Assembly: GCA_016870055.1 (NCBI GenBank)
Contig: VGCQ01000002.1
Coordinates: 1 to 45,582, forward strand
Length of the DNA stretch: 45,582 nucleotides
Origin: Alphaproteobacteria bacterium
GTDB taxonomy: Bacteria; Pseudomonadota; Alphaproteobacteria; Reyranellales; Reyranellaceae
Reading direction: 5' to 3'
The notes beneath the pieces are model-generated. The model ran no database searches and was not told the origin of the DNA. It worked only from the letters and a program-made list of their open reading frames with translations. Position numbers and translations under genes: made by a program. How positions within the stretch are numbered: the stretch's first letter is position 1; each line of letters begins with the position of its first letter. This document shows, one piece after another, positions 11,221 through 45,582 of the stretch.

Positions 11221-11339
11221 GGCGGCTCCTTCACATGAGCTATTCTTATCAAAATAGGACAAACGGTCGTTTGTAAAGGACCTTCCCCGGGCTCACATCC
11301 ATTTTTATCCAGCTGTCACTTCATTTGTGGAGAAATCCC

Positions 11340-32766: not shown

Positions 32767-33030
32767 ATGGCAAATCACAAGTCGGCCGAGAAGCGCGCGC
32801 GTCAAACCAAGCGCCGCACCGCCGTAAACACCACGCGACGCAGTCGTGTGCGCGGCTCGATCAAGAAGGTCGAGGAAGCGATCAAGGCGGGCGACAAGCA
32901 GGCTGCCGCCGCCGCATTGCGCGCCGCCCAGCCGGAGATCCAGCGCGGCGCCACCAAGCGTGTCGTGACCAAGAACGCCGCTGCACGTCGTGTGTCGCGA
33001 CTTGCCGCGCGCATCAAGGCGATGGCCTGA
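32767..33030 (+). CDS. rpsT: 30S ribosomal protein S20
   Basis: [39 protein letters not shown]...[15 protein letters not shown]. Confidence 0.97.
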
Positions 33031-33053
33031 AGCAGGTCACTCGGCCGAACATC

Positions 33054-33085
33054 AACGCCGCTCCAACGAGCGGCGTTTGTTTTTT
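33054..33085 (+). terminator. Rho-independent terminator of rpsT
   Basis: AACGCCGCTC-CAAC-GAGCGGCGTT stem (10 bp) followed by TGTTTTTT. Confidence 0.9.
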
Positions 33086-33591
33086 GGCGAACCTGCTCGA
33101 AATTTTCTTCGTGCTTTTTCATCAAGATCATTTGGTCGCCAATTCGGCGAATGACATACGATTCGTTTTTATCGGACTGCGCACGACATCAAGCGCAAGA
33201 TGTTGAACGTGAGAGCGTGCGACGAGGCGTCTGGAATCGAATTCGACGAGATGTCAATCGAGTCACGCGAAGAACATCATGGATAGCGTGTGATGTTGGC
33301 GGCCTGAATCATTTGCGCCGCCGCGCGAGTCTGTCTAAGAGTCGACGCATCGCGACGGAGCGTGGGGCGCTGACGCGAGCCGCGGTGGGGATAGGGGGCT
33401 TCCTCCTCACCGAAGACGAACGAGGGAGACGAACACAGCCGGCCGACGACAGCGACGATCGAACAAGACAGCGTCCCCTCTAACGACGCTCATCGCGATC
33501 TTCTGTCATCCTCGGTCGACCTGCGTGCCCATCGTCGATCGTCGGCTCGTTGCTCGGTGACCTGCCTCGTCAACAATGAAGCGCGGGGGCC
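33086..33591. other. Non-coding region upstream of rhodanese-dnaA; AT-rich start and GANTC cluster (possible oriC or regulatory region)
   Basis: About 500 bp with no convincing ORF between rpsT terminator and rhodanese; six GANTC in 183 bp (33161-33343). No consensus TTATCCACA box seen by eye. Confidence 0.35.
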
Positions 33592-34056
33592 ATGGCGAGA
33601 CAAGACGACATCGCGGGCGCGTATGCTCTGACCCCTGCGGCCGGCTATGCCGGCGATGTCGCTCCGGCTGCGGCGTGGAAGCTTCTCGGCGAGCGCAAGG
33701 ATGCGGTGTTGATCGACGTGCGCACGCGCGCCGAATGGAACTATGTCGGCCTGCCCGACCTCGAGTCGTTGGGCAAGAAGCCGGCCTTGATCGAGTGGCA
33801 GGTTTTTCCCAGCATGCAGCCGAATCCGGAATTCGTGGCCGCCCTCTCGGGCGCGCTGCCGGACCGCGCGGCGCCGCTGCTTTTCCTTTGTCGGAGTGGA
33901 GCCCGATCGGCCGCGGCGGCGAAAGCCATGACCGCGGCCGGCTACAGTACATGTCTCAATGTGGCGGACGGCTTCGAGGGGCCCCTGGACGCGCAGGCCA
34001 AGCGCGGCACGTCGGGGGGCTGGAAGGCGGCAGGACTTCCCTGGAGACAGACGTGA
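33592..34056 (+). CDS. Rhodanese-like domain protein
   Basis: AWKLLGERKDAVLIDVRTRAEWNYVGLP; active-site loop LFLCRSGARSAAAAKAM; LNVADGFEG. Confidence 0.93.
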   Translation: MARQDDIAGAYALTPAAGYAGDVAPAAAWKLLGERKDAVLIDVRTRAEWNYVGLPDLESLGKKPALIEWQVFPSMQPNPEFVAALSGALPDRAAPLLFLCRSGARSAAAAKAMTAAGYSTCLNVADGFEGPLDAQAKRGTSGGWKAAGLPWRQT

Positions 34057-34145
34057 ATCGAATTCAATCGCCGGTGACGGGCAACAAGCAGGACTTCCCT
34101 GGAGACAGACGTGAATCGAATTCAATCGCCGGTGACGGGCAACAA
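34030..34145. repeat. Perfect 58-bp tandem direct duplication
   Basis: GCAGGACTTCCCTGGAGACAGACGTGAATCGAATTCAATCGCCGGTGACGGGCAACAA at 34030-34087 and again at 34088-34145, no mismatch. Confidence 0.97.
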
Positions 34146-35601
34146 CAAGAACACTTCATACGAACAAAGAACGATGGCGGGGGTAGAAATGGACGAAGTT
34201 GCGGGCCGAAAGGAGCTGGAGGCGCATTGGGTGCGCGTCTGCGATCGGCTGCGCAAGGAAATCGGCGACAAGGCCTTCAAGACCTGGTTTGGCGAGGTCG
34301 AGCTCGGCAAGCTCGAGACCGGCAAGCTGCGCCTCTATGCCCCGACCCGCTTCGTGCGCGACTGGGTGGCGCGCCACTACGGCGACCGGGTGCTCGCCTA
34401 TTGGCAGGCGGTCAACAACGGAGTGAGCAGCGTCGAGGTCAACCTCGTGCCGCCACCGGCCCCGCGGCGGGCCAACGACATCATCGCCATGCCGCCCTTG
34501 CCATCCTCACCGCAGGGCTATGCCTCGTCGATGCCACGCCTCGGCCCGGCGATCGGCCGTGGCAGCGACGAGGCCTTCCAGGGTTCCGAGGCGCGTTACA
34601 CCTTCGCCAACTTCGTGGTCGGCAAGCCCAATGAATTCGCCTATGCCGCCGCCCGCAACATCGCCGAGCAGGACCGGCCGCTGCCCGAGCGCAATCCGCT
34701 CTATATTTTCGGTGGTGTGGGGCTGGGCAAGACCCATCTGATGCACGCCATCTGGCATGCCATCCGCGAGCGCGATCCCAAGACCCGGGTGCTCTATCTG
34801 ACGGCCGAAAGCTTCGTGAATCGCTTCATCCAGGCGCTGCGCACCAAGAGCACCGGCCAATTCAAGGAGCTGTTCCGCAATGTCGATGTGCTGATGGTCG
34901 ACGATGTGCAGTTCATCTGCGGCAAGGAAGCCAGCCAGGACGAGTTCTTTTTCACCTTCAACTCGCTGGTCGAGCAGAACAAGCAGATCGTGCTGTCGTC
35001 GGAGAAGCCGCCCAGCGAACTGCAGGACATCGAGGAGCGCATGCGCTCGCGGCTGGGCAGCGGCTTGGTCGCCGACATCCATTCCTCGACCTACGAGCTG
35101 CGGCTCTCCATCCTGCAGGCCAAAGCCGAAACAGCGCGTATTCCGGTACCACTGTCGGTGTTGGAGTTCCTGGCGCACAAGATCAGCACCAACATCCGCG
35201 AGCTGGAAGGCGCGCTCAACCGGGTGATCGCCCACGGCCAGCTCATCGGCCGCGAGATCACCGTGGAGATGGCGCAGGACGTCCTGCACGACCTGCTGCG
35301 CCAAGCCGACCGCAAGGTGACGGTCGACGAGATCCAGCAACGCGTGGCTGCGCACTACAACATCAAGCTCGCCGAGATGAGCTCGCCCAGGCGTGCCCGC
35401 TCGGTCGCCCGGCCACGCCAGGTCGCGATGTACCTCGCCAAGCAGCTCACCACGCTCAGCCTGCCGCAGATCGGCAAGCGCTTCGGCAACCGCGATCACA
35501 CCACCGTCATGCATGCCGTGCGCAAGATCGAGGAACTCAAGGTCTCCGATCTGTCGATTGCAGAGGATGTCGAGTTGCTCAAGCGCCAGTTGCAGGGCTG
35601 A
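34111..35601 (+). CDS. dnaA: Chromosomal replication initiator protein DnaA
   Basis: GGVGLGKTHLMHAI, LMVDDVQFICGKEASQDEFFFTFN, RPRQVAMYLAKQLTTLSLPQIGKRFGNRDHTTVMHA. GTG 34111 has a good SD; ATG 34174 is the alternative. Confidence 0.96.
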   Translation: MNRIQSPVTGNNKNTSYEQRTMAGVEMDEVAGRKELEAHWVRVCDRLRKEIGDKAFKTWFGEVELGKLETGKLRLYAPTRFVRDWVARHYGDRVLAYWQAVNNGVSSVEVNLVPPPAPRRANDIIAMPPLPSSPQGYASSMPRLGPAIGRGSDEAFQGSEARYTFANFVVGKPNEFAYAAARNIAEQDRPLPERNPLYIFGGVGLGKTHLMHAIWHAIRERDPKTRVLYLTAESFVNRFIQALRTKSTGQFKELFRNVDVLMVDDVQFICGKEASQDEFFFTFNSLVEQNKQIVLSSEKPPSELQDIEERMRSRLGSGLVADIHSSTYELRLSILQAKAETARIPVPLSVLEFLAHKISTNIRELEGALNRVIAHGQLIGREITVEMAQDVLHDLLRQADRKVTVDEIQQRVAAHYNIKLAEMSSPRRARSVARPRQVAMYLAKQLTTLSLPQIGKRFGNRDHTTVMHAVRKIEELKVSDLSIAEDVELLKRQLQG

Positions 35602-35625
35602 CGCCCCGCCGACAGGCGACACGGG

Positions 35626-35650
35626 ACGGGGCCGGTGGAGGCCCCGTTTT
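35626..35650 (+). terminator. Rho-independent terminator downstream of dnaA
   Basis: ACGGGGCC-GGTGGA-GGCCCCGT stem (8 bp) followed by TTT. Confidence 0.8.
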
Positions 35651-35812
35651 GCTTGGGATTCAAGCCGTTAAGGGCCTCAAATCGCGAGGGAAATTGCTTC
35701 CCGGCGAGGCCGGTCGTGGTATAGTCTGCAACCGTTCCGCAGCGGTCTTTTCAGGCCGGCGAAACGGGGTGTCTAAACCGCTTTTTTGGCCCCTCGTTAC
35801 AGCGACCAAACC

Positions 35813-36931
35813 ATGAAACTGACGATCGAACGGGCAGCCCTCCTGAAGGCGCTGGCTCATGTCCAGAGTGTGGTCGAACGGCGGAACACGATCCCGATCC
35901 TGTCCAATGTGCTGATCACGGCACAGAAGGGGCGGCTCAGTCTGGCGGCGACCGACATGGATCTGGCCATCACCGAGCAGGTCGACGCGACGGCGGCCAA
36001 GACCGGCTCGACGACGGCGCCGGCGCATACACTCTACGAAATCGTGCGCAAGCTGCCCGACGGTGCGCAGGTCGAGCTCGAGACGGCATCGGACGGCAAC
36101 AGCCTGGTGATCCGCGCCGGCCGGTCGCGCTTCACCCTGCAGTGTCTGCCGCCGGCCGATTTCCCGGCCATGACCGAGGGCGACCTGCCGCATCGTTTCC
36201 AGCTGCCGGCGACCGACCTCAAGGGCATCATCGACCGCACCCGGTTCGCCATCTCCAACGAGGAGACGCGCTACTACCTGAACGGCATCTATTTCCACGC
36301 CGCCACGGCCGGCGGGACGGCTGTGCTGCGCGGCGTGGCGACCGATGGCCATCGGCTGGCCCGCGTCGAGGTGCCGTTGCCCAAGGGCGCCTCGGACATC
36401 CCGGGCGTCATCGTGCCGCGCAAGACGGTGGGCGAGGTGCGCAAGCTCCTCGACGAAAGCGACGGATCGGTCGACATCGAGCTTTCCGACACCCGGATCC
36501 GCTTCGCCTCGGGCGGCGTCACCTTAGTCAGCAAGCTGATCGACGGCACCTTCCCCGACTACGAGCGCGTCATCCCGACCGGCAACGACAAGGTGCTGAA
36601 CGTGCCGTGCAAGGAGTTTGCCCACGCCGTCGACCGCGTCTCGACCATCTCCACCGAGAAGTCGCGGGCGATCAAGCTGGCCGTCGCCAAGGGCGTGGTC
36701 ACGCTGTCGGCGACCAGCCCCGACGCCGGCAGCGCCACCGAGGAGATCGAGGTCGACTACAAAGCGGCGGCGCTCGAGATCGGCTTCAACTCGCGCTACC
36801 TGCTCGACATCACCGAGCAAATCGCCGGATCCGAGGCCCGCTTCCTGATGGCCGACGCGGGCTCCCCCACCCTGGTGCGTGACGGCGCCGACGAAAGCGC
36901 CCTCTACGTGCTGATGCCGATGCGGGTATGA
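35813..36931 (+). CDS. dnaN: DNA polymerase III beta subunit (sliding clamp)
   Basis: MKLTIERAALLKALAHVQSVVERRNTIPILSNVLI; C-terminal ALYVLMPMRV; between dnaA and recF. Confidence 0.97.
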   Translation: MKLTIERAALLKALAHVQSVVERRNTIPILSNVLITAQKGRLSLAATDMDLAITEQVDATAAKTGSTTAPAHTLYEIVRKLPDGAQVELETASDGNSLVIRAGRSRFTLQCLPPADFPAMTEGDLPHRFQLPATDLKGIIDRTRFAISNEETRYYLNGIYFHAATAGGTAVLRGVATDGHRLARVEVPLPKGASDIPGVIVPRKTVGEVRKLLDESDGSVDIELSDTRIRFASGGVTLVSKLIDGTFPDYERVIPTGNDKVLNVPCKEFAHAVDRVSTISTEKSRAIKLAVAKGVVTLSATSPDAGSATEEIEVDYKAAALEIGFNSRYLLDITEQIAGSEARFLMADAGSPTLVRDGADESALYVLMPMRV

Positions 36932-38145
36932 CGGCGCCGCCGATCAGCGCGCTCGCCTTCACTCCCGACGCCGCAACCGGCGCAGCGCCGGCGGTTCTGG
37001 CCGTGCGCCAACTGCGCCTGAGCGACTTCCGCAACTATCGCCAGCTCCGCCTCGACTGCGGACCCGAGCCGGTCGTGCTGGTCGGGGCCAATGGCGCCGG
37101 CAAGACCAACCTCCTGGAGGCGCTGTCCTTCCTGGCACCCGGCCGCGGCCTCCGGCGGGCGCGGCTAGACGAGGTCGGCCGCCGCTCGCGCAACGGCGAG
37201 CCGGATGCGCCGGCGTGGGCGGTCGCAGCGACGCTCGACACGCCGGACGGACGGCTCGCCGTCGGCACCGGCCTGGAACCCGGCCGCAGTGAAGGCGCCG
37301 CGCCACGCCGCGCGGTGCGCATCGACGGCCGGCCGGCCGCCAGCCAGACCGCGCTTGGCCTGCATGTCGCGGCGGTCTGGCTGACGCCACAGCTCGACCG
37401 GTTGTTCCTCGATGGACCGGGCGAGCGCCGGCGCTTTCTCGACCGGCTGGTGACGGCCCTGCACCCCGAGCACGCCGGCGACGTGGCGGCCTACGAGAAC
37501 GCGCTGCGCCAGCGCGCCCGCCTGCTGGCAGATCGGGACAAAGGCGGCAGTCGCGACCCGCATTGGTTCGGCGCGCTCGAAGACACCATGGCCCGTCACG
37601 GCATCGCCCTGGCTGCGGCGCGCGCCGACACCGTCCATCGCCTCGACGCGGCGGCGCGGCTGGGCGTCGGCCCCTTCCCGCGGGCGGCGCTCGCCATGAC
37701 GGGCGAGGTCGACGGCTGGCTGACCGGCATGGCCGCTCTCGACGCCGAGGATCGCCTGCGGGCCGCCCTTGCCGCCAACCGCGGACGCGACGGCGAAAGC
37801 GGCACCACGCTTTGCGGCCCGCACCGCAGCGAACTCGCGGTGCGCCATCTCGACCTCGACTTGCCGGCGGCTGAGGGCTCGACCGGCCAACAGAAGGCTT
37901 TACTGGTATCGATCGCGCTGGCCCACGCCCGTCTGGTGGCGCTGTCGCGCGGCCGTGCGCCTCTGCTGCTGCTCGACGAGATCGCCGCCCATCTCGACGC
38001 CGCGCACCGCGCAGCGCTGTTCGAGGAAGTGGTGGCCCTTGGCTTGCAATGCTGGATGACCGGCACCGAGGCCGAACTGTTCTCGCCGCTGGCCGGCCGC
38101 GCCCAGGTCCTGTGCGTGGTCGACGGCTCGATTGCGACGGCCTGA
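36928..38145 (+). CDS. recF: DNA replication/repair protein RecF
   Basis: LRLSDFRNYRQLRLDCGPEPVVLVGANGAGKTNLLEALSFLAPGRGLRRAR; ATGA overlap with dnaN stop. Confidence 0.95.
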   Translation: MTAPPISALAFTPDAATGAAPAVLAVRQLRLSDFRNYRQLRLDCGPEPVVLVGANGAGKTNLLEALSFLAPGRGLRRARLDEVGRRSRNGEPDAPAWAVAATLDTPDGRLAVGTGLEPGRSEGAAPRRAVRIDGRPAASQTALGLHVAAVWLTPQLDRLFLDGPGERRRFLDRLVTALHPEHAGDVAAYENALRQRARLLADRDKGGSRDPHWFGALEDTMARHGIALAAARADTVHRLDAAARLGVGPFPRAALAMTGEVDGWLTGMAALDAEDRLRAALAANRGRDGESGTTLCGPHRSELAVRHLDLDLPAAEGSTGQQKALLVSIALAHARLVALSRGRAPLLLLDEIAAHLDAAHRAALFEEVVALGLQCWMTGTEAELFSPLAGRAQVLCVVDGSIATA

Positions 38146-40614
<2,469 letters not shown>

Positions 40615-44096: not shown

Positions 44097-45580
44097 CCGG
44101 CGCGTTGCGACGCTTCGGCGGAGCCTTGCATCGCGTGAACCTCGGATAGGGCGTCGTCGATCGAGCGCCTGTACCGGACCTCGGGCCGGCGCGCACCGCC
44201 GGCCAGCAGGACACGCCGTACCGCAGGCGTCGTTCCCGTGACGAAGACTCTCACCTCGTGCCGGCCGGCCTTGCGGGCGATCGCGGCGATGGCGTTGGCC
44301 GCCGTCGAATCGACGAACGACACGGCGGAGAAGTCGATCACCAGCGCCCGGTGCCGGTCGCCGATGCGATCGAGCACGGAGTTGAGCGTCGATGCCGTGC
44401 CGAAGAAGAAAGCGCCGGACAGCCGGTAGACGACGACGACGGCGGCGTCGGTCGCCAGCTTCGGATCGTAGGGAGATCGCAGGCCGGCATCGTCCGGTCG
44501 ATCCGCCGACACGAGCGGTGCGTGCGCCTCGATGCCGGTGACGCCGGCCATGCGCCTGATGAACAGGGCGGCACCGAGCGCGAAGCCGACGACGATGCCT
44601 TCGGTCAGATCGCGGAACACCGTCAGCAGGAAGGTCACGAGCACCACCACGGCGTCGCCGCGCGAACTGCGCAGTAGGCCGATGAATTCGTATTTCTCCG
44701 CCATGTTCCAGGCGACGATCGCCAACACTCCCGCCAGGCCGGCGAGCGGAATGTAGGCGATGAGCGGCGCGGCCAGCAGCATGAAGATCAGGAGAACGGC
44801 CGCGTGGATCATGCCCGCGATCGGCCCGCGAGCGCCAGCGCGCACGTTGGTCGCGGTGCGCGCGATGGTCCCGGTGACGGGTATCCCTCCGAACAGCGCC
44901 GCGCCGACGTTGGCGACCCCTTGTGCAAGAAGCTCGCAGTTCGAGCGATGTCGTCGCCCGGTCATGCCGTCGGCAACCACCGCCGACAACAGCGACTCGA
45001 TCGCGCCCAGCAAGGCAAAGGCCACGGCATCGGGAAGCACGGCCTGCATTTTTTCCAGCGACAAGGCCGGCACGCTCGGCGCCGGCAGCATCGAGGGGAT
45101 GCCACCGAAGTGGCTGCCGATAGTTTCGACCGGCAACGCCCCGACCCATGTCACGACGCTGACGAGGGCAACGGCAATCAACATGCCGGGCCAGGTCGGT
45201 CGCAGCCTCCTGGCGCCGACAATCAAGCCAATCGTCAGGATCGACAACGCCACCGCGGCGGGGCTGAGCGTGTCGCTCGACCGTGCCAGCATCTCTACCT
45301 TGGCGACGAAGGCCGCTGGCTCCTTGTCGTCGAGTCTCAGTCCCAGGAGGTTCTTTACCTGACTGGCGAAGATGATGATGGCGATGCCCGCCGTGAAGCC
45401 GACCGTCACCGGATAGGGAATGAACTTGATGAAGGTGCCGAGCCGCAGAAGGCCCACCACTATGAGGAACAGGCCGGCCATCATCGTCGCCAGGACCATG
45501 CCCTCGATCCCGTGCCGGTCGACGGTCGATGCCACCAGGACGATGAACGCGCCGGCCGGACCGCCGATCTGGAACCGACT
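44072..45580 (-). CDS. SulP family anion transporter with STAS domain (5' end outside window)
   Basis: Frame stays open to the window end with QIGGPAGAFIVLV; ANVGAALFGGIPVTGTIARTATNVRAGARGPIAG; STAS LVIDFSAVSFVDSTAANAI. Confidence 0.92.
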   Translation of the reverse strand, partial: SRFQIGGPAGAFIVLVASTVDRHGIEGMVLATMMAGLFLIVVGLLRLGTFIKFIPYPVTVGFTAGIAIIIFASQVKNLLGLRLDDKEPAAFVAKVEMLARSSDTLSPAAVALSILTIGLIVGARRLRPTWPGMLIAVALVSVVTWVGALPVETIGSHFGGIPSMLPAPSVPALSLEKMQAVLPDAVAFALLGAIESLLSAVVADGMTGRRHRSNCELLAQGVANVGAALFGGIPVTGTIARTATNVRAGARGPIAGMIHAAVLLIFMLLAAPLIAYIPLAGLAGVLAIVAWNMAEKYEFIGLLRSSRGDAVVVLVTFLLTVFRDLTEGIVVGFALGAALFIRRMAGVTGIEAHAPLVSADRPDDAGLRSPYDPKLATDAAVVVVYRLSGAFFFGTASTLNSVLDRIGDRHRALVIDFSAVSFVDSTAANAIAAIARKAGRHEVRVFVTGTTPAVRRVLLAGGARRPEVRYRRSIDDALSEVHAMQGSAEASQRAGQAAPRPS

Positions 45581-45582
45581 GC

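Follow-up and report, generated by a model that had tools for sequence, protein, structure and literature searches.

A perfect 58-bp tandem duplication across the rhodanese–dnaA junction of a Reyranella genome and its predicted effect on a putatively coupled start of dnaA

What becomes of a gene that starts within the stop codon of its upstream neighbour when the junction itself is copied in tandem? The question is raised by a 45,582-nucleotide stretch of alphaproteobacterial DNA (the window; contig 2 of a genome of 5.0 Mb in 648 contigs, the smallest seen being 1.5 kb), in which the end of a rhodanese-domain gene and the beginning of dnaA meet inside two adjacent copies of one unit. The assembly is probably a metagenome-assembled genome (that is, a MAG or metagenome bin), and we assign it to the genus Reyranella because Reyranella soli (L032) is the nearest named relative in the matches listed. 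The elements around the junction are the following.

32767–33030, forward strand: rpsT (ribosomal protein S20), the upstream neighbour; an open reading frame in conserved order, named from reading the sequence alone.
33054–33077, forward strand: terminator-like stem of rpsT, from a terminator scan.
33592–34056, forward strand: rhodanese-domain gene of 154 aa (Pfam PF00581, E 2.5e-8), whose stop TGA (34054–34056) lies within copy 1.
34030–34087, forward strand: tandem unit, copy 1, from repeat comparison.
34088–34145, forward strand: tandem unit, copy 2, with the same sequence as copy 1, from repeat comparison.
34043–34046, forward strand: Shine-Dalgarno-like GGAG of copy 1, 6 nt before GTG 34053 (anti-Shine-Dalgarno duplex −6.4 kcal/mol).
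34101–34104, forward strand: Shine-Dalgarno-like GGAG of copy 2, with a 6-nt spacer to GTG 34111 (anti-Shine-Dalgarno duplex −6.4 kcal/mol).
34053–34634, forward strand: putative decoy reading frame that opens at the overlapping GTG of copy 1 and runs for 193 codons in the wrong frame (open reading frame list).
34111–35601, forward strand: extended dnaA frame, opening at GTG 34111 and encoding 496 aa (Pfam DnaA_N, Bac_DnaA, Bac_DnaA_C).
34111–34188, forward strand: Reyranella-specific DnaA leader, 26 codons here and 24–28 in relatives, from in-frame conservation.
34179–34183, forward strand: conserved Shine-Dalgarno-like G-run before the internal start (anti-Shine-Dalgarno duplex −10.7 kcal/mol).
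34189–35601, forward strand: core dnaA frame, opening at the invariant internal ATG and encoding 470 aa with a complete domain I; the probable ancestral start, from conservation.

A sequence-only reading of the window had described a perfect 58-bp tandem duplication with an initiation signal in each unit, and the comparison of the two units bears this out: they lie head to tail and are identical at 58/58 positions, they form the top tandem array of the window (TRF score 232; runner-up 56), and chance is excluded as the source of a perfect repeat of this length. The match run equals the period, which leaves no microhomology at the boundaries. Each unit contains a single complete initiation region (GGAG, a 6-nt spacer and GTG, at 34043–34046/34053 and 34101–34104/34111). 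As the same reading stated, GTG 34053 overlaps the rhodanese stop, GTG 34111 opens the 496-aa dnaA frame, and entry at copy 1 leads into a different frame, which stays open for all 193 codons to 34634 and has no Pfam match.

The surroundings of the junction yielded no known RNA element in Rfam at E 0.5, and no sigma-70-like promoter was found within the 58-bp unit or on the forward strand of the 560-bp gap between rpsT and the rhodanese gene (33031–33591), where the promoter of the rhodanese–dnaA pair presumably lies. There are no DnaA boxes near the junction, and the whole window has a single 1-mismatch TTATCCACA DnaA-box site, at 11326, with 1.97 expected; because DnaA boxes do not exceed chance in the window, the replication origin is, judging from sequence, probably not beside dnaA.

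The sequence-only reading had proposed a comparison with related strains. The junction was compared in 43 distinct Reyranella sequences (the window and 42 relatives), which are related to one another, so that the conservation counts given below out of 43 do not represent independent events. The unit is present in one copy in all 42 distinct relative junctions, and a 30-mer across the join of the two copies is absent from the 60 other Reyranella genomes searched (0/60, with up to 3 mismatches allowed), from which it follows that the duplication is derived and confined to the lineage of the window. Copy number does not vary among the other Reyranella junctions read, all of them (strains of other species) being single-copy. 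Flanking DNA is ~87% identical to the nearest relatives, and the 58-nt unit differs from that of the close relative L005 by about 7 substitutions and one gap. As the two copies are identical and the L005 unit has diverged, the duplication is younger than that split, barring later exchange between the copies.

The state that preceded it can be read from the same junctions. In 42/42 relatives the dnaA frame has an ATG, GTG or TTG at the rhodanese stop, with an overlap of 4 nt (ATGA, GTGA, TTGA) or 1 nt (TAATG) and never as CTGA; the overlapping ancestor suspected from the window alone is thereby confirmed as anatomy, and we infer that translational coupling operated across it. Nine more distant loci from Alphaproteobacteria share the order rpsT–rhodanese–dnaA, and in these a dnaA start is placed −4 to +16 nt relative to the rhodanese stop. 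A literature search on rhodanese–dnaA coupling returned nothing relevant.

Because it spans a gene junction, the tandem duplication leaves both the rhodanese and the DnaA protein unchanged, and what differs is the place of the first dnaA start, which has shifted from −4 to +54 nt relative to the rhodanese stop. GTG 34111 accordingly falls outside the range expected of a coupled pair, that is, an in-frame start overlapping the stop or no more than about 20 nt from it (a distance limit taken from PMC10666635). In native gene pairs, 80–100% of reinitiation is gone at +38 nt in E. coli, and in archaea the loss comes at about 22 nt (PMC10666635). Synthetic operons cited in the same paper reinitiate over longer distances, so coupling could stay partly intact here. 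The possibility that a newly formed RNA structure hides the second start was rejected, as the duplication adds none at copy 2 (opening cost 8.1 kcal/mol there, 9.7 at copy 1 and 10.2 in the allele with one copy).

Downstream of the repeat, the segment between GTG 34111 and the core of DnaA is translated across the genus, as indicated by leader lengths that are only multiples of 3 (72, 75, 78, 81 and 84 nt), the absence of stop codons inside the leader (both in 43 sequences), a diversity of 0.29/0.16/0.47 at the three codon positions and a pN/pS of 0.48; its opening, NRIQ(S/A)P, is conserved in Reyranella. The sequence-only reading had offered ATG 34174 as the rival start of DnaA. This candidate is rejected, given that most relatives have GTG, TTT, ATT, ACG or other codons at that position; the conserved one is ATG 34189, invariant in 43/43 sequences. 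Of that earlier interpretation, then, the overlapping ancestor, the derived duplication and the wrong frame entered from copy 1 stand, and the rival start does not. Before ATG 34189 the G-run is kept whether the preceding codon specifies Ala, Val, Thr or Pro, and its glycine codon is GGG in 41/43 sequences and GGA in 2/43, GGG making up 41/752 of the glycine codons in the dnaA core. At −10.7 kcal/mol, the anti-Shine-Dalgarno duplex predicted for this site is more stable than that of either GTG site (−6.4), and the distance from ATG 34189 to the conserved domain I tryptophan resembles that in outgroup DnaA. All 43 sequences hold two in-frame starts, and the initiation region of each is conserved: a leader NTG with GGAG and an internal ATG with the G-run. 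On these sequence features, an old core start joined by a Reyranella-specific coupled leader start is the likely arrangement. As ATG 34189 has a Shine-Dalgarno-like G-run of its own, the duplication does not have to leave the cell short of DnaA; DnaA supply probably survives it, and the coupled, N-terminally extended DnaA should be the form affected. If the duplication is real, any loss of DnaA must be tolerable, given that the cell is alive.

Whether it is real has to be weighed against the possibility that the genome has one true copy and that assembly made the repeat, for example by leaving an overlap between contig pieces unmerged or by following a chimeric path through the reads. Such an artefact would be in keeping with a fragmented assembly that is probably a MAG, with the lack of microhomology at the boundaries (verified duplications in Salmonella show 11 bp or more, but these are larger rearrangements; PMC3411829) and with the absence of the repeat from the relatives examined. 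Unmerged contig-end overlaps with slight mismatches also occur in this assembly: positions 45440–45582 of the window match C473:1–143 over about 142 nt at 98–99% identity, and the end of C48 likewise matches the start of C182, which hints at assembler word length or strain variation. The same overlaps, however, suggest a word length well above 58, with which an assembler would resolve two copies rather than create them. Nor is there a sign of systematic error: over 2.24 Mb, or 45% of the genome, a scan for perfect tandem duplications of period above 30 found two (58 and 99 bp), no surplus of similar duplications and no Ns, and both leave genes readable. A single-copy variant of the region is present nowhere else in the bin, and about 85% of 58-bp placements (a count from the six genes at 32767–40614) would shift the frame of a gene, whereas the actual one harms neither of the two it spans. 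We therefore regard the artefact as unlikely and the duplication as likely to be real and recent, and infer its presence in the living genome.

Two further observations on the assembly may be recorded here. The 99-bp duplication (L176:17102–17304, on contig C48, about 173 nt before the contig end) adds 33 aa in frame to a membrane-transporter (MFS-like) gene, with 5-bp microhomology where the 58-bp repeat has none, and relatives have one copy. In addition, some contig pairs have starts (L163:1–98 and L169:1–98; L203:1–86 and L209:1–86) that are identical up to a CTAG and differ from there on, as would be expected if many contig ends carried insertion sequences targeting CTAG/TA.

Assuming a real event, we propose that 58 bp were recently duplicated in tandem where the rhodanese stop and the dnaA start overlapped, after which the rhodanese gene would end in copy 1 and dnaA begin in copy 2, with only the distance altered. 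In single-copy relatives, a terminating ribosome could restart on the dnaA leader start at the rhodanese stop. In the window, a ribosome restarting at GTG 34053 would instead translate 193 wrong-frame codons, crossing both GTG 34111 and ATG 34189, and extended DnaA would then need new initiation at GTG 34111 in copy 2. Core DnaA would be made from ATG 34189, a site untouched by the duplication. Most likely, coupling would be lost, less of the extended form would be made, and total DnaA would fall mildly. We give this overall account (a recent duplication at a coupled junction with these consequences) about an even chance of being right; the event was probably a lineage-specific, recent accident, mildly harmful or neutral, rather than a new mechanism. 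More tentatively, both dnaA starts may be under selection, the coupled leader start giving extended DnaA and the internal start giving the core independently, in which case the duplication would amount to a naturally occurring knock-out that hits just the coupled route and so separates two supplies of DnaA.

A real duplication might also be without consequence. If DnaA came almost wholly from ATG 34189, the shift of the leader start would be invisible to selection, and the invariance of this codon (43/43), its conserved G-run, the strongest of the anti-Shine-Dalgarno duplexes (−10.7 versus −6.4 kcal/mol), its agreement with the DnaA start position of outgroups and an opening cost of the site (with 60-nt flanks) that is equal in the one- and two-copy alleles are all as this would have it. 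Against it, the leader is in frame and an NTG is kept at the rhodanese stop throughout the genus, so the leader start is probably used and selected, and ribosomes on the decoy would traverse ATG 34189, too, in the wrong frame; we consider an entirely neutral duplication rather improbable, though somewhat less so than an artefact. Far less probable still is an adaptive, switchable control in which members of the population would differ in their number of units (1, 2 or 3) and this number would tune DnaA synthesis. Slippage makes long perfect tandem repeats unstable, and that instability, together with a unit that holds exactly one complete initiation region, is what such a switch would use. Two copies were seen in no other Reyranella examined, however, and the copies are undiverged, whereas the 58-nt unit of L005 differs from theirs by about 7 substitutions and a gap; there is thus no history of variation, and a single event suffices.

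The favoured account, a recent duplication that uncouples dnaA from the rhodanese gene, touches on three known kinds of system. In termination–reinitiation coupling, gene pairs overlap by 4 or 1 nt (ATGA, GTGA, TAATG; PMC6728339, PMC10666635), and single-copy Reyranella junctions have the same layout, with a Shine-Dalgarno motif before the stop; the window differs in that the start that could still be coupled is out of frame and its true leader start lies at +54 nt, which puts the pair outside this class. In Caulobacter, likewise an alphaproteobacterium, translation of dnaA is subject to N-terminal control by a structured 5′UTR and a hydrophobic, Ala-rich nascent chain with an AAI motif (PMC8443254), and the ~26 codons that precede domain I in Reyranella could similarly affect synthesis; the leader in Reyranella (NRIQSP..GNN..), however, is polar, shows no resemblance by eye to the Caulobacter chain and is not known to serve a starvation response. 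Short bacterial tandem duplications are likewise perfect, head to tail, tens of bases long and limited to one lineage, the one in the window being distinguished by its position across an overlapping stop and start, by a period not divisible by 3 and by the lack of microhomology.

If real, the duplication would be a natural experiment on how far DnaA synthesis depends on coupling to the upstream gene, set in a genus in which the coupling layout is universal among the genomes examined. The duplication itself is a single and probably transient event, and the conservation of dual dnaA starts throughout Reyranella is the more durable and general finding.
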